Below are positions 511 to 15,129 of a stretch of 22,471 nucleotides of DNA, one piece after another (positions within the stretch are counted from its first letter, which is position 1; every line of letters begins with the position of its first letter). The notes below the pieces were generated by a model. That model worked only from the letters and a program-made list of their open reading frames with translations, searched no databases and was not told the DNA's origin. Source of the DNA: a virus; the IMG/VR virus record IMGVR_UViG_3300042507_006812, positions 1-22,471 of that record. One strand, 5' to 3'. The translations under genes and the position numbers were made by a program.

Positions 511-1014
511 ATGGATTTTGACGTAGCAAAATGGAATAAAAAACGATATCTTGAAGAGGCTACCGGTGAGGACCAATTCAATGATGACCCCAATAAAGCT
601 GCTCAAGCCATTGATCAAGCTTTAGAAACAGCTACCCCATTTATACTCCCAGAAGATTTAGCTAAAGCTTTTATTATTGTAGCTCGCACGGGGTATCAAA
701 ATGAGCAATACTCTAAATTTGTTGAAGCTATGGTTTCTGAACTGAAATCTGTACTTCAAGAAATTAAAGTAAAACCTCCAACCAATTCACCCGAGGAAGT
801 AGTTAGAGTTTTACAAGATTACTCAAATAAAAACTACCCTCCTAATTTATATGATATTACTATCACTCCTGGAGCTAATTACGTGTCAATAGGAGGACAG
901 CATAAAGCAATGCTCGATGATCCAAAATTAGAACAATTGACAGGATACCAAATCTTCTCAGATCAAGATGAAGATCGTGGATATATTGTAAGATTTTACG
1001 CCCCTCAAAAATGA
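511..1014 (+). CDS. Putative internal virion protein with two (L)xE processing sites
   Basis: This 167-residue protein has no recognised domain. Its N-terminus, MDFDVAKWNKKRYLEE|A, ends in L14-E15-E16 followed by Ala, which fits the (L/I)-x-E cleavage consensus of the T4 prohead protease. A second site, L82-Q83-E84|IKVKPP, divides it into an N-terminal helical half and a C-terminal half that looks like a small alpha/beta domain. The same LQEIKVK string occurs as a leader in the gene at 12211, and LNEIKVK in that at 12616, so this ORF looks like two leader-plus-cargo units joined in one frame. It overlaps the next gene by four bases (ATGA). Packaging into the head is inferred from the leader only. 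Confidence 0.8.
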   Translation: MDFDVAKWNKKRYLEEATGEDQFNDDPNKAAQAIDQALETATPFILPEDLAKAFIIVARTGYQNEQYSKFVEAMVSELKSVLQEIKVKPPTNSPEEVVRVLQDYSNKNYPPNLYDITITPGANYVSIGGQHKAMLDDPKLEQLTGYQIFSDQDEDRGYIVRFYAPQK

Positions 1015-1997
1015 AAGATCTAGACCAAATAAAGGAATTTTTTTCCAAATCTATAGAAGAAGCTATGGGTGGGGAAATTAACGAGCAGCTTTACATTAAA
1101 ATATCTCCTGAAGATAAAATAAAAGCTTTTCAAATTTTTCAAAATAATGGTTATATTAAAATTGATCCCTCTGATATGGGGCACATCAAAAGATACGCTT
1201 CAAAATTTGGTAGCGATGTATACGCTTCAAATTCTATAGAAGACATTTACGATTTTTATTACGATTTAGCTGCTAAAGGTATTCGAGTTGAAGATGAAAA
1301 CGTAACCGATATAGATTACGATGTACCTCTTAGAGAAGAAGAAATTGAAGCTTTAGATTTTAAACTCCAAGAACTTTTTACCAAATTATCCCCATCTCAA
1401 GAAATAAATGAAGATGCTTTTGAAGATACTTGGATTGAAAATAAAAAAAAAGCTAAAGAATTTATAGAAAAATATCCTAATGACCAAGGCATTAATTACG
1501 TTAAAGCCTACTTGGATATAAATGATTTTGTTGAAGCAAATAGATATTGGACTGATTTTGTTAGGAAAATTATTAATAAGTCTCCTAATAATGAATCTTT
1601 AAAAGAAAAAATCAAAGAAATTCTTTTAGAGAAAAAAAAAAAGAGAGACCGCTGCCTTAAAATAGCTGATCGTAAATTTGATAAACCATCCGCTTACAAG
1701 TCGGGGGCAGTTACAAGATGTAGACAAGGAGAAATTTGGAAAAATCTTAAAGAAGAAACTCTAGAAGAAAAAGAAAAAGAAACTCTCCGTACTTGGTTCA
1801 AACGTAAAGGCGCTCCGGGTAAAACCGGAGGTTGGGTTGATTGCAACTCACCTATCTACAAAGATGGTAAAAAAGTTGGATACAAACCTTGTGGAAGATC
1901 AAAAGGCGAAACCAGATCAAAATATCCATCTTGCAGACCTACTGCAGCCAAGTGTAGCGACCCAGGAAAAGGCAAAAAATGGGGAAAAACAAAATAA
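1011..1997 (+). CDS. Modular putative virion protein with basic Cys-rich C-terminal modules
   Basis: The 328-residue protein starts in an ATGA overlap. A leader ends in I15-E16-E17|A. Residues 30-200 are acidic and helical. After L205-L206-E207 comes a basic module (about 208-245, C215 and C237, with the string SAYKSGAVTRCR), then L246-K247-E248 and L251-E252-E253, then a last basic module (about 258-328) with GKTGGWVDCNSP and KYPSCRPT and Cys at 278, 294, 308 and 315. I recall both C-terminal modules as recurrent in marine phage proteins of unknown function; basic charge and paired Cys suggest nucleic-acid or metal binding. The module borders coincide with predicted prohead-protease sites, which suggests that processing would release them. 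An A11 run at 1632-1642 lies on the first border. Confidence 0.83.
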   Translation: MKDLDQIKEFFSKSIEEAMGGEINEQLYIKISPEDKIKAFQIFQNNGYIKIDPSDMGHIKRYASKFGSDVYASNSIEDIYDFYYDLAAKGIRVEDENVTDIDYDVPLREEEIEALDFKLQELFTKLSPSQEINEDAFEDTWIENKKKAKEFIEKYPNDQGINYVKAYLDINDFVEANRYWTDFVRKIINKSPNNESLKEKIKEILLEKKKKRDRCLKIADRKFDKPSAYKSGAVTRCRQGEIWKNLKEETLEEKEKETLRTWFKRKGAPGKTGGWVDCNSPIYKDGKKVGYKPCGRSKGETRSKYPSCRPTAAKCSDPGKGKKWGKTK

Positions 1998-2004
1998 TTT
2001 TATA

Positions 2005-2012
2005 TATTTATA
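2005..2012 (+). promoter_or_regulatory. TATTTATA motif upstream of the 2016 gene
   Basis: This sits in the 18-base gap after the 1011-1997 gene and ends three bases before the ATG at 2016. It matches the motif found after several other stop codons in the window. The spacing to ATG is much shorter than at 481, 9123, 18447 and 20734, which weakens a promoter reading here. Confidence 0.25.
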
Positions 2013-2015
2013 ACT

Positions 2016-2381
2016 ATGAAACTATCAGCATTTAAGAAAATTATCAAAGAAGCCATTGAAGAAGAAATGGTTGAAGAAGTATTTGAACCCATTGACGAAA
2101 TTGGTCCTATAGTTGTTGTTAAAAAACCTAAGGGTAAAATGACAGCTGAAGATCTTATCCAAGAAATGTCAATATACGATAGTATCGTTAAAGAAGATAT
2201 TCTAGCAGTCCTCCCAGGAAACAGCAAATCAAAGGCTAGAAGCATAGCTAAAGAAGCTGTTAAAAACTATGAAACACAACAGGAAGCTCTTAAGACTCAA
2301 ATGGAAGAATATAGAGCTGCTAAAAAAGCTGTTGATGATAAAAGACAACTAGCTAAAAAAACAATTAGTCAACTACAATAA
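2016..2381 (+). CDS. Small helical putative internal virion protein
   Basis: This 121-residue protein begins MKLSAFKKIIKE|A, with I10-K11-E12 before Ala, an (I/L)-x-E|A site as in T4 capsid-targeting leaders. Further acidic helical residues follow, and the last 60 residues are rich in Lys, Ala and Gln and look like a single long helix or coiled coil. No catalytic motif is seen. The next gene (2400) opens with the closely similar MKLSEFKKLIR, so the two leaders are probably related. The start is the first ATG in frame, shortly after an AT-rich gap; there is no Shine-Dalgarno sequence. A role as a head-internal or scaffold-associated protein is inferred. Confidence 0.75.
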   Translation: MKLSAFKKIIKEAIEEEMVEEVFEPIDEIGPIVVVKKPKGKMTAEDLIQEMSIYDSIVKEDILAVLPGNSKSKARSIAKEAVKNYETQQEALKTQMEEYRAAKKAVDDKRQLAKKTISQLQ

Positions 2382-2399
2382 TTAAACCTCTCTTAACAA

Positions 2400-3767
2400 A
2401 TGAAACTTTCAGAATTTAAAAAACTTATCCGCCAGAGTGTTATGGAGGAAGTGAATGAAGATCAGAATATATCTAATGTTGATTCATATTATGGCTTTCT
2501 TTCAGAAGAACCAATTGACGAAAACGCTCTTGATAGAATAGAACAAGCTATAAAATCAGGAAAAATTAACCCCAAAACTGTAGAAGCCGCTGCCAAAAAA
2601 GCCCAAAGTGGTGATTCCTCAGAATTAGCAGCTCTTATGGTAATTGGTCAAGGTTTTACCAAACTCGAAGAAGCAGAGGAAGAAGAAGAAATAACTGATA
2701 CCGAAGTCGACATCACTGAACCCGCTCCAGAAGCCCCAGATATGGGAGCAGGAGATATGACCTCTTTTGCAAGTGAACCTACATACACCCCAGAAGAAGC
2801 TGAGGTTATGGATAGTCTTGACAACGCATTAAAGCAAGCCCAAGATTTAGGTGACGAAAAATTATCAACTTTAATAGGAAACATTATTACCTACTTTACA
2901 AGACAGCACGTTGTAAAAGAAGGTAGCGCTGGTAGAAAAAAACACTATAAAGGTGCTGTTAAAGACGATAAAGATCAAATTTCAAAACTAAAAAAAGACA
3001 TGAAATTCGATAAAAAGCAATTACAGAAAGAATCACTTGAAATTCTTAAAATGAAAAAACTAGCTGGCCTTTTAAAGGAAGGTGAGTATGCTAAAGCATT
3101 ATTGAGAGAAAATTTAGATTATACTTTTGAAGAATTAAAAGGAAAAACAGTTATCTTAGCTTTAATTGAAGACGGAGATGAAAACAAAGAATTTATTGTA
3201 ATCAACACTCCTGAAGACTATAGAGAATTAGAAAAAACCGTTAAAGAATACGAAGATGAGGGTATCTTAGATGAGTATTATCCTGTATTAAATAAAGGAC
3301 AACGTTTAAGAGAAGAAAAAAATCTAACCCCTCTCCAGCAATATATCTATGATTATGAAATAGAAATAAGTGATAAAGAATTTGTTGATCAAGAATTAGA
3401 AAATATTAAAAAATTAAATACTCCTCAGGATGTATATAATTACTATGCTGTTTATAGAGGTTGGGAACAAGATAAAGATTTCAAAAATGATCTAAAAAAT
3501 ATTTACAGACAAGTAAGTAAAAAATTTATAAAAGAAGAAAACAGTGATGTTTACATGAGCTTTGATAAAGAAAACTGGTTTGATAAAGAAGATAAACCTT
3601 ACGCAGGTGGCTTTGATTTTGATTATGATGAAGAAACATTTGATGATTTTGATTCATTTATATCAAAATACAGTGATAAACAAAGATCATTCAGACCCTC
3701 TGACAAATCTATATTTGATACTTATAAAAACAAGTACAATAACATGATGATGCGTAAAAGAAAATAA
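2400..3767 (+). CDS. Putative two-part precursor protein with an internal targeting/cleavage leader
   Basis: This 455-residue protein starts MKLSEFKKLIRQSVMEE, similar to the gene before it. Residues 1-205 form an acidic first part, including a Glu/Asp/Pro-rich linker and a helical stretch (about 138-175). At 210-238 lies an internal copy of the leader that opens the gene at 3800: KESLEILKMKKLAGLLKE|GE, with L225-K226-E227 before Gly, a good prohead-protease site. Residues 239-455 form a second acidic, aromatic-rich domain of unknown function. The internal leader suggests either fusion of two leader-bearing genes or a precursor cut into two cargo proteins. No enzymatic motif is visible. Confidence 0.8.
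   Translation: MKLSEFKKLIRQSVMEEVNEDQNISNVDSYYGFLSEEPIDENALDRIEQAIKSGKINPKTVEAAAKKAQSGDSSELAALMVIGQGFTKLEEAEEEEEITDTEVDITEPAPEAPDMGAGDMTSFASEPTYTPEEAEVMDSLDNALKQAQDLGDEKLSTLIGNIITYFTRQHVVKEGSAGRKKHYKGAVKDDKDQISKLKKDMKFDKKQLQKESLEILKMKKLAGLLKEGEYAKALLRENLDYTFEELKGKTVILALIEDGDENKEFIVINTPEDYRELEKTVKEYEDEGILDEYYPVLNKGQRLREEKNLTPLQQYIYDYEIEISDKEFVDQELENIKKLNTPQDVYNYYAVYRGWEQDKDFKNDLKNIYRQVSKKFIKEENSDVYMSFDKENWFDKEDKPYAGGFDFDYDEETFDDFDSFISKYSDKQRSFRPSDKSIFDTYKNKYNNMMMRKRK
3027..3113 (+). repeat. Direct repeat copy A (internal KKLAGLL leader)
   Basis: These 87 bases encode residues 210-238 of the 2400-3767 protein and align without gaps to 3803-3889. I count about 10 mismatches in 87 positions. Five of them leave the residue unchanged, so the peptide is nearly conserved. 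It encodes the KMKKLAGLLKE|GEYAKALL leader-like peptide. Confidence 0.88.
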
Positions 3768-3783
3768 AAAAAATTTAAAAATT

Positions 3784-3791
3784 TATAAAAT
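3784..3791 (+). promoter_or_regulatory. Weak T4-late-like TATAAAAT box
   Basis: TATAAAAT lies in the 32-base AT-only stretch before the ATG at 3800 and resembles the T4 late promoter core TATAAATA. Only eight bases separate it from the ATG, and the whole gap is A/T, so a chance match is quite possible. Confidence 0.2.
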
Positions 3792-3799
3792 AAAAAATC

Positions 3800-4333
3800 A
3801 TGAAAGAATCACTCGAAATCCTTAGAATGAAAAAATTAGCTGGCCTTTTAACTGAAGGTGAATATGCTAAAGCATTATTAAAAGAAACTGAACTAGTAAA
3901 TGAAGGTATGAGACCTGAGGATGCTAATGGTTTAGTTAATGCCCTCGAAGCCTATTTAGCAAGACCTGCACTTAAAAGTTTTAGAGGAATACCTGGTATG
4001 CCCATGACAAATGGTAAATTTAGCCCTTTTGATATTGAAGATTTTAAAAGATTTTTACAAAATCCTGGAGGTTCTTTTTCAAAGTCAGCTGAAACCAATA
4101 ATTTTCTTAGCAAGGTCTATAAAGCACTTTCAAGGCCCCCCTTTAGTGAAGATAAAATGATAGATGATATTATAACTCCTCTTATTTCAAAATGGCTTAC
4201 CTATAAAGATCAACGAGGTATGAAAACAGATACCGAAAAATATCAAGTCCAACAATGGAAGGATGAACTTGAAGATTACGCAAGAAATAATCCTGATGAT
4301 TATGTTTTCCAAATCACAGGTAGATATTCATAA
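3800..4333 (+). CDS. Putative internal virion protein with KKLAGLL-type leader
   Basis: This 177-residue protein begins with 29 residues nearly identical to an internal segment of the preceding protein: ESLEILRMKKLAGLLTE|GE. L17-T18-E19 before Gly fits the (L/I)-x-E|G/A prohead-protease consensus. Another candidate is at L27-K28-E29. The remaining 150 residues are a mixed helical domain with several Pro/Gly turns and no motif I recognise. The start is the ATG that opens the repeat. I recall similar leaders on marine phage proteins, but no known function. Head targeting is inferred from the leader. Confidence 0.8.
   Translation: MKESLEILRMKKLAGLLTEGEYAKALLKETELVNEGMRPEDANGLVNALEAYLARPALKSFRGIPGMPMTNGKFSPFDIEDFKRFLQNPGGSFSKSAETNNFLSKVYKALSRPPFSEDKMIDDIITPLISKWLTYKDQRGMKTDTEKYQVQQWKDELEDYARNNPDDYVFQITGRYS
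3803..3889 (+). repeat. Direct repeat copy B (N-terminal KKLAGLL leader)
   Basis: This is the partner of 3027-3113, about 88% identical by hand count, with the two copies 776 bases apart. Here the repeat forms the N-terminus of a separate gene, which supports the idea that it is a leader module. A 14-base piece (aaaaaattagctgg) recurs at the very end of the 10007-12214 gene. Confidence 0.88.
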
Positions 4334-4343
4334 TATATTTTAG

Positions 4344-4351
4344 TATAAATT
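4344..4351 (+). promoter_or_regulatory. T4-late-like TATAAATT box upstream of histone-like gene
   Basis: TATAAATT differs from the T4 late promoter core TATAAATA at the last base and lies 14 bases before the ATG at 4366. It is on the coding strand and in the gap between genes. The surrounding sequence is almost all A/T, so confidence is low. Confidence 0.3.
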
Positions 4352-4365
4352 AAATAATAAAAACT

Positions 4366-4539
4366 ATGACATCACAAGAACTACACGATAAAATGGTAGA
4401 GGTTTTAGAAACCCTAACTATCGAACACCACAAAACAACTAAAGCAGCTCACGGGCGCGCTCGTAAAGCTGCTGGTGAACTCAAAAAATTAATTACCGAA
4501 TATCGTAAAGCATCTACTGCTGAAGATAAAGCGAAATAA
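4366..4539 (+). CDS. Histone-H1-like small DNA-binding protein
   Basis: This short frame encodes 57 residues. It starts MTSQELHDKMVEVLETL, and its core is GRARKAAGELKKLITEYRKA, a Lys/Arg/Ala-rich helix. It resembles the small histone-H1-like (Hc1-like) proteins common in Bacteroidetes, which have the pattern G-x-RARKA-x-ELKKL-x-E-x-RK. Such proteins bind and compact DNA. In a phage it could coat genome DNA in the head or act on the host nucleoid. It has no (L/I)xE leader, unlike its neighbours. The start is preceded by an A-rich leader and possibly a TATAAATT box; six bases separate its stop from the next ATG. It is one of the clues to the host group. Confidence 0.78.
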   Translation: MTSQELHDKMVEVLETLTIEHHKTTKAAHGRARKAAGELKKLITEYRKASTAEDKAK

Positions 4540-4545
4540 AATAAA

Positions 4546-6786
4546 ATGAAACCTTTCAACTTTAATCTTATTGTAGAAAATCATTCTCTTAAAAACCTAC
4601 GAGAGATTAAAGCTGTCTCTGGTACAGATAGAGAATACATTATAAAATCTGTAGATAATAAGCTTCAAGCTTATTTTGATAAACTCGTACCCACTTCAGG
4701 TAACTCCCAGTTTCTTGAAGGTGAAATGCTCAGAGCTATCAATAGAATAATCTACAGAAGTTATAATGATGGTGACTATTTTTATCAAGGGTATGGAGCC
4801 GAAACCGTAGGCCCCGCAATGGCTTTTTTAACTAATCATAGAGAAATTCCTATTGAAATAAGAAGGCAAATTATAGATATTGAAAGAGAAGCTGTAGGAT
4901 CTGTTGATAAAAACTATGAGGATTATCTATATCAAATAGCTGAAATTATATTAGATTATCTTAATAGTAAAAATGGAGAATTTACTCCTTCTACTGCTGA
5001 TTTATTTGATTATGATTCTGAATATGATTCTTCTGAAGAAGACGATGAGGATGATGACCCAGGCTTTGACTATGATGATGAGGATGAAGAAGATGAGGAT
5101 GATATGTACGAATCTATCTCTGAAGCTTTAACTCCAAAACAGGAAAAATATAAAGATTACTATTTAAAATTCCTAAAGGAAAATAAAAAGAACTTTATTA
5201 AACTTTATGGTCCTGTAGCTGAACGTGTAATGTATGGTAGAGCTATAGAAATGGCTAAACTAAAATCAGAAGAAACACTTCAAGAAATCAAACCTGTAGC
5301 AGCTGATGCTTTTCTTTCAGCTAAAGAAGTAATAAAATTGATTGGGAAGCAAGGTGAAGCTTCTATAGGTGATACTTTCACTTATGGTGGGGTTGAAATG
5401 CAAGTTCAACTTACTCCTAATGGCGGTTTAATAGCAGTATCTCAAACAGACCCTAATAAATCTATTCCTATTATATTTGGGGAAGATCCTGAAAAACAAA
5501 AGGTAAGAGAAATGGTTAAAAATGTTTTGAGAAATCCTGAACTAGCTGATAGAAATAGAGATGGAGAACTATCATCTTGGGAAAAAAAAGTAGGGGCTGC
5601 AATTGAAAAGAACACAGCTCAAAATGAAATTAGAGTAGTTTCCCCTTACGAACCTGAAGATGATGATGATGAATTTTACCAAGGAGATTGGGGTTCTTCA
5701 GATCAAGCTATAATGAATCGATCAATCCACCGAAACCTAAATGAACCAACAGAATTTCCAGGTCTAACTCAAACTTTATCAGCTGTAGAAGAAGCAGTTG
5801 ATTTTTATTGGGATGATTGGGAAGAATACCAAACTGAAGAAGGTAGAGAAAACTTAATAAGAGATGCTTTCCAAAGATACATGGGAAGATATTTCCCTGA
5901 CTTTTTTAGAGATATGCAAGCTTTTCTGACCCCTATTGATGAAGATAATACTAATATGATGGAAAATTATACAAATGAAGACCTTGATTTAGGTCACGAA
6001 GACAACGAACCACACATGATTAAAGGCGAACTATATCGTATTGGAAAATACGCTATGGAACTCTATCAAATGGTAGATGAGTTTGAAGGTATGGGTGAAG
6101 TAGACTTCCCTGCATGGTGGCAAGCTATGATTACAGACTCAGCTTCTAAAATGGTCAAAGCAAAACATTACCTTGATTTCGAAACCAAAGAACCCGAAAT
6201 TGATGCTATGGTAGGTGCTATTGATATGTCAGGTGCTCTAGACAATGTAGGTGTAGACGAAGCTCTACCCCCAGGATATTTTAAAAAGAAATACCCTAAA
6301 AAACTTAAAGAAGAATCTCCACTAACCCCAGGTCTAGGAGAAGGAATTGGTGATGCTTTTACTAATCTAAAAAAGATAATTAAAATCATAGTATCTGATG
6401 ATCAATACCTAATTCCACCTGATGTATCAGATAATTTCTTTGATAAACTAGACAAAGCAACTGACTCCAAATCTTTAGAAGACCTTGCAAAAGTTGTAAA
6501 CAAATCAATAGCAGGCAAAGGAAAGCCAGGAACAAACGTTGGCAGTGGAGGCACCGGAGTTACAGAAACTAGGAAACTGAAAGAAGAATCACCTAAAGAT
6601 AAAACTGGTCTTCGCTATGCTCTAGCTACAAATTTAGCTAAAACTGGAAAGCCCCAAACTCAATCCGGAGCTAAACCTGCAAAGTTAACCCCAGGTTTAG
6701 AAAAGAAAAGAGAAGCTAATGTTAAAAAGTTAAAAAAATACATCAAAGAAACCATTATTTCTCAGTCTTTAAAAAATAAAAAATAA
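4546..6786 (+). CDS. Large modular putative virion protein with EF-hand loop and multiple LxE sites
   Basis: The 746-residue protein starts MKPFNFNLIVE|N, with L18-R19-E20|IKAV just after. Residues 159-186 are a Asp/Glu tract. I191-S192-E193|A precedes a helical module (LTPKQEKYKDYYLKFLKENK, then ERVMYGRAIEMAK) of a type I recall from marine phages. L245-Q246-E247|IKP opens another module. Residues 335-346 (DRNRDGELSSWE) fit a canonical EF-hand calcium loop. Near the C-terminus, LKEESP occurs twice (587-592 and 678-683), each followed by a basic or Gly-rich stretch. The candidate processing sites fall between differently composed segments, as expected for a precursor. Its stop overlaps the next start (TAATG). 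No enzyme signature is seen; a structural or packaged role is inferred. Confidence 0.82.
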   Translation: MKPFNFNLIVENHSLKNLREIKAVSGTDREYIIKSVDNKLQAYFDKLVPTSGNSQFLEGEMLRAINRIIYRSYNDGDYFYQGYGAETVGPAMAFLTNHREIPIEIRRQIIDIEREAVGSVDKNYEDYLYQIAEIILDYLNSKNGEFTPSTADLFDYDSEYDSSEEDDEDDDPGFDYDDEDEEDEDDMYESISEALTPKQEKYKDYYLKFLKENKKNFIKLYGPVAERVMYGRAIEMAKLKSEETLQEIKPVAADAFLSAKEVIKLIGKQGEASIGDTFTYGGVEMQVQLTPNGGLIAVSQTDPNKSIPIIFGEDPEKQKVREMVKNVLRNPELADRNRDGELSSWEKKVGAAIEKNTAQNEIRVVSPYEPEDDDDEFYQGDWGSSDQAIMNRSIHRNLNEPTEFPGLTQTLSAVEEAVDFYWDDWEEYQTEEGRENLIRDAFQRYMGRYFPDFFRDMQAFLTPIDEDNTNMMENYTNEDLDLGHEDNEPHMIKGELYRIGKYAMELYQMVDEFEGMGEVDFPAWWQAMITDSASKMVKAKHYLDFETKEPEIDAMVGAIDMSGALDNVGVDEALPPGYFKKKYPKKLKEESPLTPGLGEGIGDAFTNLKKIIKIIVSDDQYLIPPDVSDNFFDKLDKATDSKSLEDLAKVVNKSIAGKGKPGTNVGSGGTGVTETRKLKEESPKDKTGLRYALATNLAKTGKPQTQSGAKPAKLTPGLEKKREANVKKLKKYIKETIISQSLKNKK

Positions 6787-7292
6787 TGACCTCTAGCGAA
6801 TTAAGAGATAAAATTCAAGGTGCTGTACGTAAGGTTTACGGTGTTCGTAAACCTGGTATGGGTGGGGAGGAAACTTTTTCAGACGAATTAACTAAATTTC
6901 CTGAGTTAAGTAAAGTTCTAAGAGAACTATTAACGGATGATTATAAAGTTTTTGTTGAGAGTATTGATTGGGTAGCCCCTAAACCTACTACTTTTAGAAT
7001 TAACCTTAAAAACGGTCAAAATTTTTATTTAATATATACTTTAAGAAGTTGGATAGCTCAAATTGAAGGTAAAAAATATTATCTTCTTAATTTAAATGAA
7101 AAAGAAAATGCAACTAATGCTATATCTCGTGTTTTGAGATATGGTCCTAAAGCAACAGAAGAAATACCTTCTGAACCTTCTGATTCTTCATCTAAACCTA
7201 AACCTTCAAGTTCATCTTCTCCATCCCCAACTCCTCCTCCAACTCCATCTCCTACCGCTCCTGAAACCCCAACGACTCCAGAAGAGGCTTAA
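6786..7292 (+). CDS. Hypothetical protein with Pro/Ser/Thr-rich C-terminal tail
   Basis: This 168-residue protein starts in a TAATG overlap with the gene before it, which suggests translational coupling. Residues 1-125 look like a compact alpha/beta domain with a central strand-rich section. From about residue 128 the protein becomes a low-complexity tail of Ser, Pro and Thr ending in PETPTTPEEA, which is likely disordered and a flexible tether. The leader lacks a clear (L/I)xE site, so it may not be processed like its neighbours. I do not recognise the family. Confidence 0.75.
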   Translation: MTSSELRDKIQGAVRKVYGVRKPGMGGEETFSDELTKFPELSKVLRELLTDDYKVFVESIDWVAPKPTTFRINLKNGQNFYLIYTLRSWIAQIEGKKYYLLNLNEKENATNAISRVLRYGPKATEEIPSEPSDSSSKPKPSSSSSPSPTPPPTPSPTAPETPTTPEEA

Positions 7293-7293
7293 A

Positions 7294-7300: not shown

Positions 7301-7304
7301 TACC

Positions 7305-7826
7305 ATGGATTTATCAAAATTACGTAAAATGATTCGCGAAGTTAAGGTTGAAGACCCTGAACTAGCAGCTCAAATCAAGGAATACGCTGAACTCTCAGAT
7401 AGTATAGATAGAATTAAATCCGAGTTAAAAAAACTTGAGGTAAAATATAAAGGATTAGAAGAAGTGATTCGTCCTCTTCTTGAAGAGTTAGAAGAAACTC
7501 AAGATAAAGCTCTTGAAGTTGAAGATATTTTAGTTACGATTAAAAGAAAAGGGTATGAAAGAACATCCATAGCCTATAAAGAAGCTTTAGAATGGGTAAG
7601 AGACAGAATCAATCCAGCAATGAGAAAAATTGTTGACGATTCTTTAGAGGCAACTAAAAAGCCAACTTACATTGCTTCTCAAATTGGTGTTCAAAAACTA
7701 AAAGAAGAAAAAAATAGTTCAAAATTAAAAATGTATTTTGATAAATTAGCTAAAGTATTTTCTTTTAGAAATAATAAACTTTCACAAGATATAAATGTTC
7801 TCAAAACCAAACTTCAATCGATTTGA
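7305..7826 (+). CDS. Coiled-coil putative internal virion protein
   Basis: The 173-residue protein begins MDLSKLRKMIRE|VKVEDPE. I10-R11-E12 followed by VKV resembles the LxE|IKVK leaders elsewhere in the block. Residues 25-75 have a regular heptad-like pattern of Leu, Ile and Val with many Glu/Lys and should form a coiled coil. A second helical part follows (about 90-170). No enzymatic motif is visible. The 3' end overlaps the start of a small frame at 7795 by 32 bases. A rod-like structural or scaffold-associated role would fit, but this is inference. Confidence 0.77.
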   Translation: MDLSKLRKMIREVKVEDPELAAQIKEYAELSDSIDRIKSELKKLEVKYKGLEEVIRPLLEELEETQDKALEVEDILVTIKRKGYERTSIAYKEALEWVRDRINPAMRKIVDDSLEATKKPTYIASQIGVQKLKEEKNSSKLKMYFDKLAKVFSFRNNKLSQDINVLKTKLQSI

Positions 7827-7989: not shown

Positions 7990-8027
7990 TTCTTTGTTTA
8001 TAACTTCTAAGTTAAAACATATATCAT

Positions 8028-9122
8028 ATGGCTAATAAAGAATTATCATCTCATATAACAGATAGAATAGTCACTGTAGACCAGTTGCTTAACGCACACG
8101 ACATTTCTCTCGAATATTGGGAAATAGAAAAACAAATCGTTAACTCATGGGAGGTTGGGGCTAAAACACCAGATGGTGTAATCGCTACAACTCCTCTTTT
8201 CCAAGTAAAGGTTTGGCTTAAAAGTAAAATCGAATCTAAAAGATTAGATGAAATTAAAGCAGAATTTATCCAAGACCTTCAACTTTTATCTCCAGTAGTT
8301 AAAAAAATTGAATACAAAAACGTAAGCGATAAACCTAAAAAAATGGTTGAAATTAATATTTTCGATCTTCACTTAGGTAAATTTGCTTGGAGAGAGGAAA
8401 CTAACCACGATTACGATTTAAAAATTGCAATGGGTATCTTCAATGATTGTATTGATCATTTTATTGAGTCTGTTAAAAATGTAAACGTTGATAAATTTCT
8501 TATTCCAATCGGAAACGATTTCTTCAACTCAGACTACTCTTACCCTTACAACAGAACTACAAAAGGTACACCTCAAGAAAATGATACTCGTTGGCAACAT
8601 ATCTTTAGAAAAGGCCGCCAGCTTTTAATTGATAATATCAATAAACTAGTTCAAATTGCTCCCGTTGATATTGTTATGATTCCGGGCAATCACGACTATG
8701 AAAAAATCTTCTACTTAGGTGATTCTTTACAGGGTTGGTTCCACAACAATGAAAACGTAAACGTAAACAACTTAGCCGCTCCTAGAAAATACTACAAATA
8801 CGAAGATGTATTTTTAGGTTTTACTCACGGAGATAAAGAAAAGGTAAACGATTTACCTCTAATTATGGCTCAAGAAAATCCAATGGATTGGGGTTTAACT
8901 AAATTTAGAGAGTTCCATTTAGGACATATCCACCACAAACAGGAAATCAAATACAAATCAGCCCACGAATATAGCGGTGTTATAATTCGTTATATGAGCT
9001 CACTCTCAGGAACCGACGCTTGGCATTTCAGCCACGGGTACGTGGGTTCTAAACGCTCAGCTGAATGTCTCGTTTGGGATGGAAAAAAAGGTTTAGATCA
9101 GCAAATTTATTATACTTTATGA
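8028..9122 (+). CDS. Calcineurin-like metallophosphoesterase
   Basis: This 364-residue protein carries the full metallophosphoesterase signature: D113-x-H115 (DLHLGKF), GND with D164, GNHD (220-223), HGD around H267, and GHIH (299-302). These residues bind the two metal ions in the calcineurin/SbcD/Mre11 superfamily. The first 90 residues form a separate helical part (QIVNSWEVGAKTPDG) that I cannot assign, perhaps DNA-binding. The substrate is unknown; a phosphodiesterase or nuclease acting on DNA or nucleotides is plausible for this fold, but SbcD identity is not claimed. It has no (L/I)xE leader. The stop is followed directly by a TATTTAT motif. Confidence 0.92.
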   Translation: MANKELSSHITDRIVTVDQLLNAHDISLEYWEIEKQIVNSWEVGAKTPDGVIATTPLFQVKVWLKSKIESKRLDEIKAEFIQDLQLLSPVVKKIEYKNVSDKPKKMVEINIFDLHLGKFAWREETNHDYDLKIAMGIFNDCIDHFIESVKNVNVDKFLIPIGNDFFNSDYSYPYNRTTKGTPQENDTRWQHIFRKGRQLLIDNINKLVQIAPVDIVMIPGNHDYEKIFYLGDSLQGWFHNNENVNVNNLAAPRKYYKYEDVFLGFTHGDKEKVNDLPLIMAQENPMDWGLTKFREFHLGHIHHKQEIKYKSAHEYSGVIIRYMSSLSGTDAWHFSHGYVGSKRSAECLVWDGKKGLDQQIYYTL

Positions 9123-9129
9123 TATTTAT
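9123..9129 (+). promoter_or_regulatory. TATTTAT motif directly after a stop codon
   Basis: It starts on the base after the TGA at 9120-9122 and lies 15 bases before the ATG at 9145. The stop-TATTTAT arrangement is the same as at 481, 18447 and 20734. Confidence 0.33.
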
Positions 9130-9144
9130 GGCATATTATCAGCC

Positions 9145-10005
9145 ATGGATAAAGTAGATGTAAAAGCCACTATCAAAAAACATAACATTGGACCTGGATC
9201 TCGTCTTGTTTTCAAAAAAGATCCTCAAGCATATTATGTAAAAAGTTGGGTAGGAGACATACAAAATGTTCCCGACGACAAAATAGCTGTGTTTGTAACT
9301 ACTAATAGTGGAGATACTTATAAAAAATTTTTAAGGAATCTAGTAAAAGTAGGAAACAGTGAACCTATTATGAAAACATTAAATGAAGGCAAATGCAACT
9401 GTGGATGTGGTGGTTGTTCTAAAGCACCATTATTAAACGAACAGCTTGTATCACGTCAAGGGTTGTCTGAGGGTATACTCTATCATATAGACAATAAAAA
9501 ACCGCTTACAGAACATTTATACCGTGCCGGTTCGGAAAAATACTTTCAACTTTGGTCTGAAGCTAGAATGCTTTACTCTCGTGATCTTTTAGAAGTAAAA
9601 GGTGACGATTTAGATATTCTTTTAGAAACAGATTTGGGCCATTTTGGCCTCTATGAAAATCAACAAGTTCCCTTAGATTTTATTTTTGAAGAAATCGAAG
9701 AAGAACTAGACGAAGCCAAAAAGGAAAAAAAGAAAAACCCACCATTAAACAAACCAAAACGTGGTGGTTCTAAAAAATTCTATGTTTACGTAAGAGACCC
9801 AAAATCAGGTAACATTAAAAAGGTATCCTTCGGTCAAGAAGGTATGTCTGCTAAAATCAATAATTCAAAAGCAAGAGCTGCTTTCTCAAAACGCCATAAT
9901 TGCCCCGCTAAAAAGGACAAAACTAAAGCTTCATATTGGAGCTGCCGTCTTCCAAGATACGCTAAACAATTAGGTCTTAAATCTAACTTTTCAGGATTCT
10001 GGTGA
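9145..10005 (+). CDS. Modular putative virion protein with CxCxCxxC cluster and basic C-terminal module
   Basis: The 286-residue protein has four visible parts. Residues 1-75 are a small basic domain. A tight Cys cluster follows: C84, C86, C88 and C91 (CNCGCGGC), a possible metal site. Residues 124-185 contain LYRAGSEKYFQLWSEARMLY and an acidic stretch. The last part (about 191-286) is a basic module beginning GGSKKFYVYVRDPKSG with KRHNC and YWSCR. I recall the last two parts as recurrent in marine phage proteins of unknown function. Predicted prohead-protease sites lie between them: L79-N80-E81|G, L107-S108-E109|G and L188-D189-E190|A. The leader itself has no such site. A packaged DNA-binding precursor is an attractive but unproven reading. 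Confidence 0.83.
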   Translation: MDKVDVKATIKKHNIGPGSRLVFKKDPQAYYVKSWVGDIQNVPDDKIAVFVTTNSGDTYKKFLRNLVKVGNSEPIMKTLNEGKCNCGCGGCSKAPLLNEQLVSRQGLSEGILYHIDNKKPLTEHLYRAGSEKYFQLWSEARMLYSRDLLEVKGDDLDILLETDLGHFGLYENQQVPLDFIFEEIEEELDEAKKEKKKNPPLNKPKRGGSKKFYVYVRDPKSGNIKKVSFGQEGMSAKINNSKARAAFSKRHNCPAKKDKTKASYWSCRLPRYAKQLGLKSNFSGFW

Positions 10006-10006
10006 T

Positions 10007-12214
10007 ATGATCAAATTAATCAACATACTACACGAAATAAAAATTTTTTCTTCTTTTTTTCAAATAGCTAAAGATGAAGATGAAGAATCTCAATTTTATG
10101 AAGAAACTGATTATGTAGGCTCAGGCTTAACAGGGTATATTCTTGGTAAGATGTCTTATAATGAGTTAGCTCGAAAATTAGGCGCTGAAGCTACTCTCGA
10201 AAATGATGAAAGTTATTCAGATGGAGGTTCTAAAGTATCAGCTGAATGGATAATTAAAGTAGGTGAGCAGGGAGCAACACCTCAAATTGTTAGAATATAT
10301 GATTATAAAGGAGATGTTGCTGCTCCCATAGAAAGAGATGAAAAAATAATATGGCATGTTGGGGGTAACAAAGAAGCTGCTCAAAAACTATTTTCGAGTT
10401 TAGGGTTAAAATTTACTGATGATTTTAGAGAAGCTTATGATTTAGGTTTATTTGAATCTTTACTCTTAGAAATTTCTGAAAAGGTTATCAAACAAAAATT
10501 TGAAGAATATAAAAACCAAGTTGTCAATCTAGATTACGATGCTGTAAGGTATTACGTTGAAAGATTTGACCAAATTAAAAGTGGTTTAAAAAGTAGAGTT
10601 CAAAGAGGAGACGAATTAGTTTTAACTCTTTTACCTAAAGAATTAAAAACTGAAGAAGCTCTAAATAAATTATTTTATATTGATATTCTTAAATGGCGAA
10701 AGTTTAGAGATCTAGAAAAACTTATTGATGGTGCTTTCTCAAAACAAATAGCTAAAAAGAAAGAAGAAGAATTAGTCAATTCAGTAGAAACTGATGCTGA
10801 CTTAATTTATTCTAAAAATGGCATCGAAATATATAAAGGAGATGCTGAACATAAATGTATCAAATACGGAAAAAGTGGATATTACTCATGGTGTATCTCA
10901 CGCCCCCAAGGAAGTCTATATGGATCCTACAGATTTGGGGGTACCGGTGGTAGTAGAATGTTCTATTTTGTATTTGATAGAAATAGACCTGATAGAAAAA
11001 CAGATGGAAAGTTTGAAGATCCCTACCATGCAATGGTAATTCATAAATATGAGAATGGTACTTATGCTTTAACCCTTGCACCTAATACAGGTGATAAACC
11101 CTTTAAAACCTACCAAGATCTAGTAAATTCCCTCCCAGAAGACTTAAAAAATGCTTTAAAAGATAAAGAAAATTTATTTAGTTACATTCCTCCTAGTAAA
11201 GAAGAAATTGAAGTTCAAGCATTAGCAGGTAAAGAGTTAACCCCTACCCAATTTGCAGAGTTAAGTTATGAAGGAAAAAAACTTTATGTTAGAAACAATG
11301 CTAATGATTATAGAAAATTAACTCCAGCTATAGTAAAGTTTTTAGACCTAGATTTAAAAAATGAAGCTATTAACAACAATAGAAAATTTACTTTTGATGA
11401 GTTAAAATCTAATCTAGGGTTAGTAAAAAGATATGCAGATTATAGATATACAAGATACCCTGATGAACCTCTTCCATACAAATTTTTACCTTACCTAAAA
11501 CCTGATTTACAACAAACTTATTACGATAAATTTGAGGAAGATTATTTATCTTTTGATGAAATTGAAGAATATTTTTCTAAAGACATTTTAAATCAATATA
11601 TAGAAAAACAAATAAACAATCTTGATTTCTTACCTAAAGAGGCTGTTAAATACATGACTCCGCAGCAAAAAGAAATCTATGATATATATTCAAAAAGTTT
11701 TTCTGATATTGAATACAATCTTGATTCTAATCACAATTCAAGTGAAGATAGAATGGCCCCACAAAGGACAGTAAGAATCCGTCCTATATCTACTAAAAAT
11801 TTCCTTAGCCTCTCCCCAGAAGAAAGAAATGAGTATATAAATTTCCTTAAAGAATATATTACAGATCCCAATTCTCAAAATCAGTATTTAGCAGTATCAT
11901 TAGGTATTCCTACAAGTTTTGAACAAAACGGTAAATTATATTTTATTACTCCTAATGGAACAACCTATAATGCCGACTTTAATATTATAGATTCTGAAGG
12001 GAATGTTGTTAAAAACAAAGTTAAAAAGATTTCTTTCTCTAAAGATGGTAAACCAGCCGATATCCGATCATCAGGAACGTCACTTAAAGGTTCTGATTCA
12101 TTTTACTTAAAGCCTGGAGTTGATTATGATAAAATTGAAATAGATGGTCAACCCTTAGAATTACAGGAAAACCAGGTCTATCAGAGATTTAAAAAATTAG
12201 CTGGATTATTATGA
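10007..12214 (+). CDS. Large putative packaged protein with MIKLxxIL leader
   Basis: The 735-residue protein starts MIKLINILHE|IKI, a leader with L8-H9-E10 that matches the MIKLxxILxE family in this block. Residues 1-270 are mixed helical. A central conserved-looking core has C284 and the string GYYSWCIS (C296), followed by YRFGGTGGSRMFYFVFDRN and a strand-rich segment. I recall a W-C core of this sort in other phage proteins without known function. The middle third is helical and acidic; the last 100 residues look like a beta-rich domain. It ends VYQRFKKLAGLL, matching the start of the KKLAGLL leader at 3800. It overlaps the next start by four bases (ATGA). The size and leader would suit a T4 Alt-like injected protein, but there is no ADP-ribosyltransferase signature. 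Confidence 0.82.
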   Translation: MIKLINILHEIKIFSSFFQIAKDEDEESQFYEETDYVGSGLTGYILGKMSYNELARKLGAEATLENDESYSDGGSKVSAEWIIKVGEQGATPQIVRIYDYKGDVAAPIERDEKIIWHVGGNKEAAQKLFSSLGLKFTDDFREAYDLGLFESLLLEISEKVIKQKFEEYKNQVVNLDYDAVRYYVERFDQIKSGLKSRVQRGDELVLTLLPKELKTEEALNKLFYIDILKWRKFRDLEKLIDGAFSKQIAKKKEEELVNSVETDADLIYSKNGIEIYKGDAEHKCIKYGKSGYYSWCISRPQGSLYGSYRFGGTGGSRMFYFVFDRNRPDRKTDGKFEDPYHAMVIHKYENGTYALTLAPNTGDKPFKTYQDLVNSLPEDLKNALKDKENLFSYIPPSKEEIEVQALAGKELTPTQFAELSYEGKKLYVRNNANDYRKLTPAIVKFLDLDLKNEAINNNRKFTFDELKSNLGLVKRYADYRYTRYPDEPLPYKFLPYLKPDLQQTYYDKFEEDYLSFDEIEEYFSKDILNQYIEKQINNLDFLPKEAVKYMTPQQKEIYDIYSKSFSDIEYNLDSNHNSSEDRMAPQRTVRIRPISTKNFLSLSPEERNEYINFLKEYITDPNSQNQYLAVSLGIPTSFEQNGKLYFITPNGTTYNADFNIIDSEGNVVKNKVKKISFSKDGKPADIRSSGTSLKGSDSFYLKPGVDYDKIEIDGQPLELQENQVYQRFKKLAGLL

Positions 12215-12609
12215 AAAAATCTCAACTAAATAAAATCATTAGATCAGCTTTACAGGAAATTAAAGTAAAACCAAGCTTAAGTCCTACTGAACTATTTAAA
12301 GAAGTAAGTTCTGAACTAACCCCATTCCATGTATATTTTCTCCTGGACTCAGCAAATGTAGATGATTTTTTGGATGATTGGATTGATGATTTTGAGGGCC
12401 AATTTAACTTAAACCTAAACTCATATAGACCTAAACTTGAAGCACTTTATAGATTAGCAGAACAAAATGAAATTGCCCCATTATTTTTAATGGGTGAAGA
12501 TGTAGAGCTTGGAGATCATCAATTTAACATATCAGATTATAGTTATCTAACAACAATTAAAGATAGTGATTATAATTACGTTTATGTTTCAAAATTTCCT
12601 TTAACATAA
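12211..12609 (+). CDS. Putative internal virion protein with LQEIKVK leader
   Basis: This 132-residue protein begins MKKSQLNKIIRSALQE|IKVKP. L14-Q15-E16|IKVK is identical to the internal site at residues 82-88 of the 511-1014 protein. After the leader comes an acidic domain with many Asp, Leu and aromatic residues and no recognised motif. It starts in an ATGA overlap with the large gene before it, so it is probably translationally coupled. Cleavage after E16 would leave a mature protein of about 116 residues. Packaging is inferred. Confidence 0.78.
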   Translation: MKKSQLNKIIRSALQEIKVKPSLSPTELFKEVSSELTPFHVYFLLDSANVDDFLDDWIDDFEGQFNLNLNSYRPKLEALYRLAEQNEIAPLFLMGEDVELGDHQFNISDYSYLTTIKDSDYNYVYVSKFPLT

Positions 12610-12615
12610 TAGGGT

Positions 12616-13131
12616 ATGTTTGACTTAAAAAAATATCTTTCTAATAATCCTCTCTTAAATGAGATTAAAGTAAAGGCCCCCAATACATTCTCTCAGGACG
12701 ATATCGAATTTTTAAACATTTTAGCCGATGAATCTTATGGAGAAGGTGTTAGTGTGATCGACATTTACCAACCTCTGAGTGAAACATATGATCTAGAAGA
12801 TTTTGAATACATCTCAGACGAAGACTATGATAGTAAAAAACATATAGCTATAAAACATTTTCTTAAAAACTTTAGCAGTGGGGTATATATTTTACCTGAC
12901 ACAAATTCTAACCTATTTGGACGAGAATGGGAAGCTCCGGGGGCCCCAGCCAACAATGCATATTACACTAGAGTAATTATTGATCAAGATAACGAATTAG
13001 TACAAATAGAAACCCCCCATATAGATGACGATGGGGAATATTATGTAGGTTGGTTTGACTCTGATACAAACTATCATCCAGATACAGCTAATTTTACTGA
13101 AGATGGAGAATATACTGGAAACGCTGAGTAA
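12616..13131 (+). CDS. Putative internal virion protein with LNEIKVK leader
   Basis: The 171-residue protein starts MFDLKKYLSNNPLLNE|IKVKAP. As in the gene before it, the predicted cut is after E16, and IKVK follows. The mature part is very acidic, with many Asp, Glu and Tyr, and seems to hold a strand-rich domain around residues 85-150 (for example YYTRVIIDQDNELVQIE). I do not recognise it. The final 29 bases overlap the start of the nucleotidyltransferase-like gene in another frame. Confidence 0.77.
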   Translation: MFDLKKYLSNNPLLNEIKVKAPNTFSQDDIEFLNILADESYGEGVSVIDIYQPLSETYDLEDFEYISDEDYDSKKHIAIKHFLKNFSSGVYILPDTNSNLFGREWEAPGAPANNAYYTRVIIDQDNELVQIETPHIDDDGEYYVGWFDSDTNYHPDTANFTEDGEYTGNAE

Positions 13132-13480
13132 ATTTCAAAAAAGACACCCTAATATTTATATTGGGGGAAGTGTTTCTTTAATTTTACAAAACGTAATCCC
13201 ATATAGAATACCTAAAGACATAGATATTATTTCAACTAATCGTATTCATATTTACGATTTATTTGAAGTTAAAAAAGAAAAACATAGGTTAATAAAAAAG
13301 TTTAAACATGATGGATTAAAATTTGATTTATTTATTAATCCAAATGCCCAATATATTGAATATATTTATAATGGATGTGTTTTAAAATTATCTCCCATTG
13401 ATGAAATTTATGAATGGAAATTAAAAGAAAAAAACATTCAAACAGAAAAACATATAAACGATTTACAATATTATACATGA
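13103..13480 (+). CDS. Minimal nucleotidyltransferase-like protein
   Basis: This 125-residue protein has a compact nucleotidyltransferase signature: G21-G22-S23, then D39-x-D41 (PKDIDII), then D75 (LKFDLFIN). This Gly-Gly-Ser plus three-Asp pattern is the catalytic core of the pol-beta-type superfamily, including the MNT and AbiEii-like groups. The start chosen is the ATG at 13103 (MENILETLSKF), because the frame upstream of it overlaps acidic coding sequence of the previous gene and looks non-native. It overlaps that gene by 29 bases and the next by four. Possible roles include transfer of a nucleotide to a protein, RNA or small molecule; the substrate is unknown. It has no clear (L/I)xE leader. 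Confidence 0.72.
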   Translation: MENILETLSKFQKRHPNIYIGGSVSLILQNVIPYRIPKDIDIISTNRIHIYDLFEVKKEKHRLIKKFKHDGLKFDLFINPNAQYIEYIYNGCVLKLSPIDEIYEWKLKEKNIQTEKHINDLQYYT

Positions 13481-13794
13481 TTAAGTTAACTGATATTCTA
13501 CAAGAAGCAAAAGAATCATTTGAGGATTTTGCTGTAACACGAGGTAAAGGAGCAGCTAAAATTGCTGAAAACGCTGAAGAAAAAGGTGGTTTATCTCTAT
13601 TAACATGGCATCACTTTAAAGTAAAAGCTCCATATTATAAAAAAGCAGCTGAAGGTAAATTCGATAAAGAAGCAGCTAAAAAAGAATTCGATCAAACCCT
13701 AAAGAAAATATCACTAGGAATGACCCAAACAGAATTTCAACGTGAAGTTGGACGTTTAGAGGTATTAGGTGAACTATTAATTAGAGAAAAATGA
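13477..13794 (+). CDS. Small putative internal virion protein with MIKLTDILQE leader
   Basis: The 105-residue protein begins MIKLTDILQE|AKES. L8-Q9-E10 before Ala closely fits the T4 capsid-targeting leader and (L/I)-x-E|A cleavage rule. The rest is basic and helical, rich in Lys, Ala and Glu (for example RGKGAAKIAENAEEKGG). I recall similar proteins in marine T4-like phages, with no known function. The start is the ATG in the ATGA overlap with the nucleotidyltransferase-like gene, not an upstream ATG at 13414 that lies inside that gene. Its stop again overlaps the next start (ATGA). Confidence 0.82.
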   Translation: MIKLTDILQEAKESFEDFAVTRGKGAAKIAENAEEKGGLSLLTWHHFKVKAPYYKKAAEGKFDKEAAKKEFDQTLKKISLGMTQTEFQREVGRLEVLGELLIREK

Positions 13795-14216
13795 TAAAAC
13801 TAGCAAACATACTAAGTGAAGCTGAACTAAATAAATGCCCAGCCCCAACCCAAAACATTGAACTTAACCTTCAAAACAGACAGAAGGCAATCAATGAATA
13901 CGGGTATGGTCCTCTAAACCCTAACGAACCAAACAACAAATTCTGGCAAGCTAAAGTAGACATGTGGAAGCTTGATTCTGTAGAAGAAGCTAAAACATCA
14001 CTCTGTGGTAATTGTGCTGCATTTGATATTACTACTAAAACATTAGATTGTATAGCTAAAGGAATAGGTAATGATGGTGGATCAGAAGACCCATTTGATG
14101 TTATTAAAGCTGGTAAATTAGGATATTGTAGATTCTTAAAATTTAAATGCGCAGCAGCTCGAACTTGCGATGCTTGGGTTGTTGGTGGTCCTGTTACAGA
14201 TGATAAAACCACATAA
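13791..14216 (+). CDS. Cys-rich putative packaged protein with MIKLANILSE leader
   Basis: This 141-residue protein starts MIKLANILSE|AEL, a leader with L8-S9-E10 before Ala. It has seven Cys, including CGNC, LDC and a final CRFLKFKCAAARTCDAW. The spacing recalls small Fe-S or zinc proteins, and the C-terminal part has a weak resemblance to high-potential iron-sulfur proteins, but I cannot assign a cofactor. The segment NRQKAINEYGYGPLNP and the Cys-rich tail are conserved in T4-like marine phages as I recall them. It lies between two other MIKL-leader genes, joined by an ATGA overlap upstream and one base downstream. Confidence 0.82.
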   Translation: MIKLANILSEAELNKCPAPTQNIELNLQNRQKAINEYGYGPLNPNEPNNKFWQAKVDMWKLDSVEEAKTSLCGNCAAFDITTKTLDCIAKGIGNDGGSEDPFDVIKAGKLGYCRFLKFKCAAARTCDAWVVGGPVTDDKTT

Positions 14217-14217
14217 A

Positions 14218-14775
14218 ATGATTAAACTATCAGACATATTAAAAGAAATAAATATCCAACAAAAAGATCAGTTAGGATCAGGACAAAGAAGCTCAGTATA
14301 TCCTTATAACAAAGATCCCGAAAAAATAATAAAAACTGTTTCTGATTATGAGGATGATAATGAATTTGATTTAGAACAAATTAAAATATTCCAAAAACAT
14401 CCTGATATATTTCCTTTAGTATATAAAGTAACTGATAAATATGCTATATTAGAAAAATTAAATGTAGGTAAAGCATATGATGAAATGGTATCATTAGAGC
14501 TTCAAGTAGAAAAAACAAATAATGTTTTATCTAAGTTTATGCAAGATGAAAAATATGAATACGATGATTTAGCAGGTGTTTTATATAATTTTTTAAAAGA
14601 ATATCCTGAAAGTGAATTAAATTCTTTATATAGTAAAATTAAAGATAGTAATAAACTTAAAACTTGGGTTTCTTTAATAAAAAAAGCTATAAATTTAATA
14701 AATAATGATTTAGATATTCATGGTGAACAATTTGGTTATAGTAAAGATGGTAAATTAAAATTATTAGATTTTTAA
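14218..14775 (+). CDS. Minimal protein-kinase-like protein with MIKLSDILKE leader
   Basis: The start is the ATG at 14218, one base after the previous stop; an upstream in-frame ATG lies inside that gene. The 185-residue protein begins MIKLSDILKE|INI. Kinase-like elements then appear in order: a Gly-rich loop (LGSGQRSSVYPY, 19-30), a candidate beta-3 lysine (K39 in IIKTV), a hinge-like YAILEKL, a catalytic-loop-like D166-I-H-G-E-Q171, and LLDF at the very end (D184). The 18-residue gap between D166 and D184 equals that between the catalytic and DFG aspartates of PKA. The chain stops at this Asp-Phe, so most of the C-lobe is missing; Gln replaces the usual Asn at D+5. It could be a very small kinase or a pseudokinase. 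Confidence 0.68.
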   Translation: MIKLSDILKEINIQQKDQLGSGQRSSVYPYNKDPEKIIKTVSDYEDDNEFDLEQIKIFQKHPDIFPLVYKVTDKYAILEKLNVGKAYDEMVSLELQVEKTNNVLSKFMQDEKYEYDDLAGVLYNFLKEYPESELNSLYSKIKDSNKLKTWVSLIKKAINLINNDLDIHGEQFGYSKDGKLKLLDF

Positions 14776-14810
14776 TAACCTCTTGTAAATGGTGTTCAAA
14801 TTGATTTATG

Positions 14811-14822
14811 TCTAAAGGAGAA
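14811..14822 (+). promoter_or_regulatory. Shine-Dalgarno site AAAGGAG
   Basis: The sequence tctaaaggagaa places AAGGAG seven bases before the ATG at 14827. It is the clearest Shine-Dalgarno sequence in the window; most other starts have only A-rich leaders or rely on overlap with the previous stop. It fixes the start of the cupin-like gene. Confidence 0.7.
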
Positions 14823-14826
14823 TAAA

Positions 14827-15129
14827 ATGATTAAACTATCCGAGAAGATAAAGAATATAAAATTTAATATAACTCCATACACTGACATAGAAGTTACAGA
14901 CAAATACATCATCCGAGAATTTACCGAAAACATTGACCCAATAGAGTTAATGTGGCATAGAGATGATGAAGATAGAACAATTGAGATTCTAGGAGAAACA
15001 GACTGGTTAATCCAATTAGACGATCAGTTGCCATCTCAAATAAAAGGCCCTATATTTATACCCCGACATATGTGGCACCGAACCATAAAAGGAACAGGAC
15101 CACTTAAAGTCAAAATACATTTAGACTGA
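14827..15129 (+). CDS. Small cupin-like protein
   Basis: This 100-residue protein carries WHRDDEDRTIEIL near the middle, followed by GPIFIPRHMWHRTIKGTG, an arrangement of His residues and beta-strand-forming segments typical of a single-domain cupin-like barrel. I recall similar short proteins in cyanophages and other marine phages without an assigned function. Its N-terminus, MIKLSEKIKNIK, shares the MIKL opening of its neighbours but lacks the (L/I)-x-E site, so it is probably not processed in the same way. It has a good Shine-Dalgarno sequence and is followed by a terminator, making it the last gene of its transcription unit. Confidence 0.78.
   Translation: MIKLSEKIKNIKFNITPYTDIEVTDKYIIREFTENIDPIELMWHRDDEDRTIEILGETDWLIQLDDQLPSQIKGPIFIPRHMWHRTIKGTGPLKVKIHLD

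Follow-up and report, generated by a model that had tools for sequence, protein, structure and literature searches.

A block of putative T4-style capsid-targeting leaders on an exchangeable gene set in a viral contig

The viral contig IMGVR_UViG_3300042507_006812 (22,471 bases from an uncultured T4-like phage, analysed over its whole length and hereafter called the window) carries all of its called genes on the plus strand and encodes a T4-type large terminase subunit (19165-20733; PF03237, E 6e-14; phrog_2) and a T4-type portal protein, gp20 (20758-22470; Portal_T4, E 2e-71), which is truncated by the contig end. The closest cultured relative found is the Flavobacterium phage vB_FspM_immuto (hereafter immuto; 58% to the terminase and 61% to the portal), the complete annotated genome of which served as outside reference. 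Between positions 511 and 15129 of the window lies a block in which about a dozen open reading frames (ORFs) with unrelated bodies begin with a short leader, and eleven leaders in the window end in (L/I)-x-E. Four leader classes were defined, namely A (MIKLxxILxE), B (MKKSQLxxIIKE), C (MxxFDLKKYLAE..LxE) and D (RMQKLAGIITE), all of which are nearly always found at ORF starts. As argued below, these leaders are probably capsid-targeting propeptides of the kind known from phage T4.

Class A leaders open four ORFs and all match a profile of the window leaders (see below): MIKLINILHE↓I (10007-10036; the arrow marks the predicted cut) in the 735-aa ORF 10007-12214, MIKLTDILQE↓A (13477-13506) in ORF 13477-13794, MIKLANILSE↓A (13791-13820) in ORF 13791-14216 and MIKLSDILKE↓I (14218-14247) in the kinase-like ORF 14218-14775. 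For 10007, the nearest relative, L293, retains TKLINILKE↓I, and a class A leader occurs on 25 of 26 homologues of the 13477 protein. The starts at 13477 and 14218 sit within longer open frames, and their orthologues start at the same MIKL. The claim that codon choice differs among the MIKL leaders was borne out, with 70-80% DNA identity over 40 nt. A broken class A copy (MIKLSEKIKNIKF; 14827-14868) precedes a short conserved ORF, the homologues of which begin at MTPYTD and have no leader copy; 14822-14861 shares 80% DNA identity with 14213-14252 in the 14218 leader region, and this copy may reflect a leader capture that recently failed or is still under way.

Class B leaders matching the profile are MKLSAFKKIIKE↓A (2016-2051, ending KKIIKE↓A) in ORF 2016-2381, MDLSKLRKMIRE↓V (7305-7340, RKMIRE↓V) in ORF 7305-7826 and MKKSQLNKIIRSALQE↓I (12211-12258, SALQE↓IKVK) in ORF 12211-12609, and a weak class B-like leader (MKLSEFKKLIRQSVMEE; 2400-2450), with V-M-E in place of (L/I)-x-E, opens ORF 2400-3767. 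Class C is represented by MFDLKKYLSNNPLLNE↓I (12616-12663, LLNE↓IKVK) in ORF 12616-13131 and by the class C-like MDFDVAKWNKKRYLEE↓A (511-558, KKRYLEE↓A) in ORF 511-1014, both matching the profile; the orthologue of the latter in the related contig G001 (position 26955) retains MGFDVSKWNKQRYLAE↓A. A further leader, MKDLDQIKEFFSKSIEE↓A (1011-1061, SKSIEE↓A), opens ORF 1011-1997, a fusion whose C-terminal part is DUF5872-like and in which an internal IKEILLE↓KKKKRDRC sits at the fusion joint; in relatives, the DUF5872 body on its own bears its own leader. The class D motif occurs three times, as the profile-matching leader MKESLEILRMKKLAGLLTE↓G (3800-3856, KKLAGLLTE↓G) of ORF 3800-4333, as an internal copy KMKKLAGLLKE↓GEYAKALLRE inside ORF 2400-3767 and as the C-terminus of ORF 10007-12214 (..YQRFKKLAGLL-stop; 12185-12211), modelled as a helix with low confidence. 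The internal copy (2985-3111) is the first copy of a 127-nt direct repeat, the second lying at 3761-3887 with 79% identity. Finally, ORF 4546-6786 has a weak candidate (..NLRE↓IKAV; 4546-4605) with no profile match. All the leaders that an earlier note had claimed were found at their starts, that of 4546 weakly, whereas the 2400 leader, the internal class D copy, the C-terminal FKKLAGLL of 10007 and the broken MIKL copy at 14827 were absent from it.

The same leaders recur on unrelated proteins in the viral collection, where the counts given for classes A, C and D are lower bounds. Class A (as MIKxxxILxE) was found at at least 141 places, starting at the first in-frame ATG in 136 of the 141 listed, and the 138 longer proteins listed, once stripped of the leader, fall into at least 58 unrelated body clusters. 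Class C (FDLKKYLAE) lies no more than 12 residues from the first ATG in 129 of the 141 matches listed and is carried by at least 65 body clusters; among the matches listed, 121 of 127 have an LxE within 9 aa. Class B stands at offset 1 (residue 2) in 53 of 62 cases and on 34 body clusters. Conversely, one body may bear different leaders: homologues of the window 13791 body have class A, B or C leaders, and those of the 2016 body class B or A (class A in G002 and L198). Bodies that are 87% identical over 149 aa carry class C in L066 and class B in L500, and P-loop bodies 77% identical over 253 aa carry class A in L451 and class C in L400. Overall, two or more leader classes were found on 25 of 320 body clusters, a few of which (those combining A with D) are artefacts in which the class A pattern matched where a class D leader ends.

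Since (L/I)-x-E is common near protein starts, with the bare pattern ^M.{2,16}[LI].E matching 54 of 233 immuto genes, this pattern was rejected as non-specific and stricter tests were used. A profile was built from the eleven window leaders and run on seven related genomes, with internal segments of the same proteins as the null and their 99th percentile as threshold. A surplus of N-terminal matches was observed in these seven genomes, for instance in immuto (12 of 226 vs 2.3 expected), G001 (11 of 62 vs 0.6), G004 (17 of 239 vs 2.4) and G002 (10 of 177 vs 1.8), and in immuto the structural half, gp154-204, holds 10 of the 12 matches (p 4e-6). In a set of 879 dereplicated proteins of relatives, for which portal or genome and not the motif was the basis of selection, [LIVF][LIVF]-x-E shows maxima at E10 (25 vs 5.7 expected per position, Poisson p 2e-9) and at E12 (30 vs 5.7, p 8e-13), and no such position peak was seen in these proteins with a control pattern ending in D. 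Scrambling the class A residues left 7 stretches in the viral collection against at least 119 for the real pattern, and none of the 7 starts an ORF longer than 51 aa. The class A DNA pattern occurs in 43 stretches when 257 Gb of contigs from bacteria and archaea are scanned; most of these stretches are not long leader-bearing ORFs, and some others resemble phage contigs. One of these, L582, binned into a Rickettsiaceae genome and probably a phage contig in that bin, has two tandem MIKL leader genes (1377-1705), one nearly of the window 13791 family.

Class D also occurs at the end of another protein. RMQKLAG forms the C-terminal end of a protein, within a few residues, in 91 of the 120 matches listed in the viral collection, and in the gene calls listed 84 of 90 such proteins lie no more than 3 genes upstream of the major capsid gene; as nearly all are just upstream of this gene, they are identified as the scaffold. 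The 30 other called RMQKLAG proteins listed have at least 26 unrelated bodies and carry the motif nearly always N-terminally, with an E within 4 residues after it in 29 of 30. In immuto, gp204, located between the protease and capsid genes, ends RWQKLAGIIK, and gp188 and gp41 start with the leader form of the motif; in L003, the nearest portal relative of the window, the scaffold ends RWQKLAGIIKS. Comparison of the sequences thus identifies the class D leader as a copy of the C-terminal tail of the scaffold of this lineage, and therefore class D proteins probably dock where the scaffold tail docks. Starting class D at the M of RMQ was rejected, in-frame starts being present upstream. Scaffold-tail mimicry was likewise rejected for T4 and P-SSM4, the gp22 tails of which differ, so that class D is, as far as seen, restricted to this lineage. 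Class A resembles the scaffold tail more than other protein starts do, mostly through its hydrophobic pattern, which is suggestive only.

The predicted cleavage motif is shared with the protease of the relatives. The earlier note had expected a gp21-like protease gene after the portal and would have taken its absence from the genome as a refutation; the window stops inside the portal, and in the relatives the gene was found at this very place. In immuto, as in 10 of 11 related contigs, Peptidase_S77 (PF03420) comes directly after the portal. The domain scored over the Pfam cut-off in 11 of 12 records, and the columns of T4 gp21 H85 and S140 are invariant in the family alignment. The gene is thus expected just past the window portal. 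All 42 relative proteases have (L/I)-x-E↓(G/N/S/T) before the catalytic domain, so that the protease propeptide has the same ending as the leaders, and because of this place it is presumably the self-cleavage site. All four MIKL-bearing records longer than 150 kb have the protease.

The class A register, M-x-x-[hydrophobic]4-x-x-[hydrophobic]7-[hydrophobic]8-x-E10, present at 10007, 13477, 13791 and 14218, is that of T4 IPIII, in which targeting depends mainly on residues 4 and 7 and processing requires 8 and 10 (PMC9026906). T4 IPI, IPII, IPIII and Alt (PMC9026906, PMC3012670) likewise have a 10-residue leader in which positions 4, 7 and 8 are hydrophobic and position 10 is E, a predicted cut after (L/I)-x-E, unrelated mature parts and a protease of the gp21 family. 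They differ in having one main leader type, whereas at least four classes, swapped among dozens of body families, occur here, and in that the scaffold-tail class, the internal leader copy and the fusions are features of the present lineage. What is new relative to T4 is therefore the several classes, their exchange, the wide cargo set and the scaffold-tail class, while the register and the protease type are the same. The number of leader-bearing genes, previously described as far above that of T4, is so when compared with IPI-III and Alt but less clearly when compared with all T4 gp21 substrates (about ten). The window-trained profile ranked ten known T4 gp21 substrates above thirty other T4 proteins (area under the curve 0.88, p 2e-4); only this ranking holds, as absolute transfer was rejected with most T4 leaders below threshold. 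Among the T4 stretches examined, the sole protein that matches the class A pattern, or any of the class patterns, is gp24, which is cut at MAKINELLRE↓S. The 10-residue propeptide and LLRE↓S of gp24 resemble the leaders described here, yet gp24 is a shell protein and not cargo. An N-terminal propeptide is cut off gp24 by gp21 (PMC5694885).

The majority of leader-bearing bodies belong to no known family, and for the window bodies no Pfam or PHROGs match to the IP or Alt families was found for any. A candidate enzyme in the window is the 14218 protein, the body of which (14248-14775) matches a kinase family (phrog_18305, E 1.9e-6). Its AlphaFold2 model has a mean predicted local distance difference test score of 83.6, with ca. 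53 over the leader; the top Foldseek matches of the body among solved structures are all kinases (protein, aminoglycoside; E ~4e-4, template modelling score 0.35-0.45), and the glycine loop, lysine and aspartate of kinases are represented by the invariant residues G22, K39 and D184. By PHROGs, conserved residues and predicted fold, the body is thus kinase-like. Class A bodies elsewhere include zeta-toxin/AAA, RNase_T exonuclease, deoxyribonucleotidase and lysozyme-type domains. A function for the 735-aa 10007 protein was sought and not assigned, its model being of low confidence with no PDB match below E 0.09. In leader-bearing proteins of the relatives L266 (5016-5903, plus strand), L262 (7606, plus) and L506 (11135-11167, minus), YHFT or YHYT shortly after the leader recalls by eye ADP-ribosyltransferase-like domains, although no profile match to a family of that kind was seen.

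Taken together, the protease past the portal in relatives, its matching self-site, the IPIII register, the strict N-terminal placement of the leaders, their exchange on one body and the scaffold-tail class support the earlier proposal of capsid targeting and gp21-type cleavage, and we consider it very likely, judging from sequence, that the leaders are capsid-targeting propeptides in the manner of T4, borne by a large set of exchangeable cargo proteins. The block would then be a locus of head-cargo genes. In each cargo protein an amphipathic propeptide of 10-25 aa would bind to the core or shell of the prohead as it grows, like the IPIII leader, and this binding would enclose the protein in the prohead. 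Cleavage after (L/I)-x-E would follow, carried out by the gp21-type protease whose gene lies past the portal in relatives, and the freed cargo would stay with the DNA and be ejected into the host. This role would be shared by at least four leader sequences, which are swapped between bodies. We also lean, with less assurance, towards the view that this lineage, which has a cultured relative on Flavobacterium, shares a wide pool of injected effectors with several interchangeable leaders, one of them a natural copy of the scaffold C-tail by which cargo uses the scaffold docking site, tail copies being also placed C-terminally or inside fused cargo, which would be split by the protease.

Several observations weigh against capsid targeting and cleavage. 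The window itself has no protease, scaffold or capsid gene, its sequence stopping inside the portal, and 10 of 20 MIKL-bearing records have no S77 protease, although none of these exceeds ca. 102 kb and all could be fragments. In relatives the major capsid protein is probably cut at L-V-x-E, where P3 is V and not L/I, and the P1' residue of class A is frequently I or V and not A. At 12211 as well as at 12616 the E is followed by IKVK, so the likeness between leaders does not end sharply at the cut site. Leader-like genes are also found near baseplate genes (immuto gp157), and no proteomics or cleavage results for this lineage were found.

The leaders might be true prohead-core targeting and cleavage signals borne by core assembly factors, like T4 gp67 and gp68, that do their work or are degraded within the prohead and are not injected as cargo. 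All the leader evidence fits this equally well, several bodies are small, acidic and devoid of known domains, and class D equals the scaffold tail; the bodies are nevertheless numerous, mostly unrelated and replaced between relatives, and several are enzyme-like (the kinase fold, zeta-toxin/AAA, RNase_T, deoxyribonucleotidase and lysozyme). We regard such a role as rather unlikely. It is more doubtful still that they are docking helices for the portal or neck, the tail or a membrane, with an L-x-E unrelated to the prohead protease. Short amphipathic leaders could have many addresses, and a class B-like gene adjoins the baseplate genes in immuto (gp157) and relatives, but LxE is common to four classes that differ in other respects and is identical to the self-site of the protease, and class D is the tail of a scaffold that acts in the prohead only.

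The likeness could in principle also reflect codon or composition bias at A-rich, Lys/Ile-rich gene starts, recent duplication or chance under a loose pattern, given the high base rate of the bare pattern and the DNA duplicates (127 nt and 40 nt) among the window leaders. This explanation is disfavoured and very improbable in view of the drop from at least 119 to 7 stretches on scrambling, the E10 and E12 peaks missing in the D control, the peptide kept constant on unrelated bodies, and the mere 43 stretches, with few long leader-bearing ORFs, in bacterial and archaeal contigs.

Beyond T4, related strategies are known. The Dar proteins of phage P1 are injected and have an N-terminal packaging signal, the first 30 residues of DarB being sufficient (PMC9024508), but they have no common N-terminal consensus, which is strong in the lineage described here. 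Several head ejection proteins of phiKZ and SPN3US also have an N-terminal propeptide, which a related protease removes by cutting after x-x-E (PMC5694885, PMC10052503); they differ in that several propeptides are long (more than 100 aa in SPN3US), the sites are S/A-x-E or A-x-E and a portable short leader family is missing. In engineered P22, cargo is enclosed via fusion to the scaffold, the C-terminal helix-turn-helix of which is needed for assembly (PMC9962691). By analogy, this man-made system shows that the principle is workable, whereas here a short scaffold-tail copy occurs naturally, mostly at the cargo N-terminus and with a protease site behind it. No earlier description of the present leaders was found in the open-access literature, where the papers found dealt with T4, P1 and giant phages.

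Other genes of the window are leaderless or lie outside the block. Amid the leader-bearing genes, a leaderless nucleotidyltransferase-like ORF (13091-13480; GGSVSLILQN..PKDIDII) has a 56% identical homologue in L263 that adjoins a 10007 homologue, and a leaderless phosphoesterase/DNA repair exonuclease (8028-9122; phrog_704, E 3e-72) has no homologue among the related loci compared. Between the block and the terminase are found a conserved oxidoreductase-like protein and a cupin-like protein (15226-16581 and 16849-17919), the latter with an additional C-terminal methyltransferase-like part missing from most relatives. Directly before the terminase, two short overlapping ORFs (18470-19160) resemble a spanin pair, one with an N-terminal membrane segment and the other with a signal-peptide-like start.

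If the leaders act as capsid-targeting propeptides, their sequence alone would suffice to draw up candidates for head-packaged proteins across thousands of uncultured T4-like phages, and it would become clear when and where otherwise anonymous genes act, namely inside the head and first into the host. The scaffold-tail copy would offer a concrete and testable explanation of cargo recruitment into a T4-type prohead, and the cultured relative immuto makes such testing practical. More generally, the block suggests that these phages load and inject a large and changeable set of proteins into their bacterial hosts.

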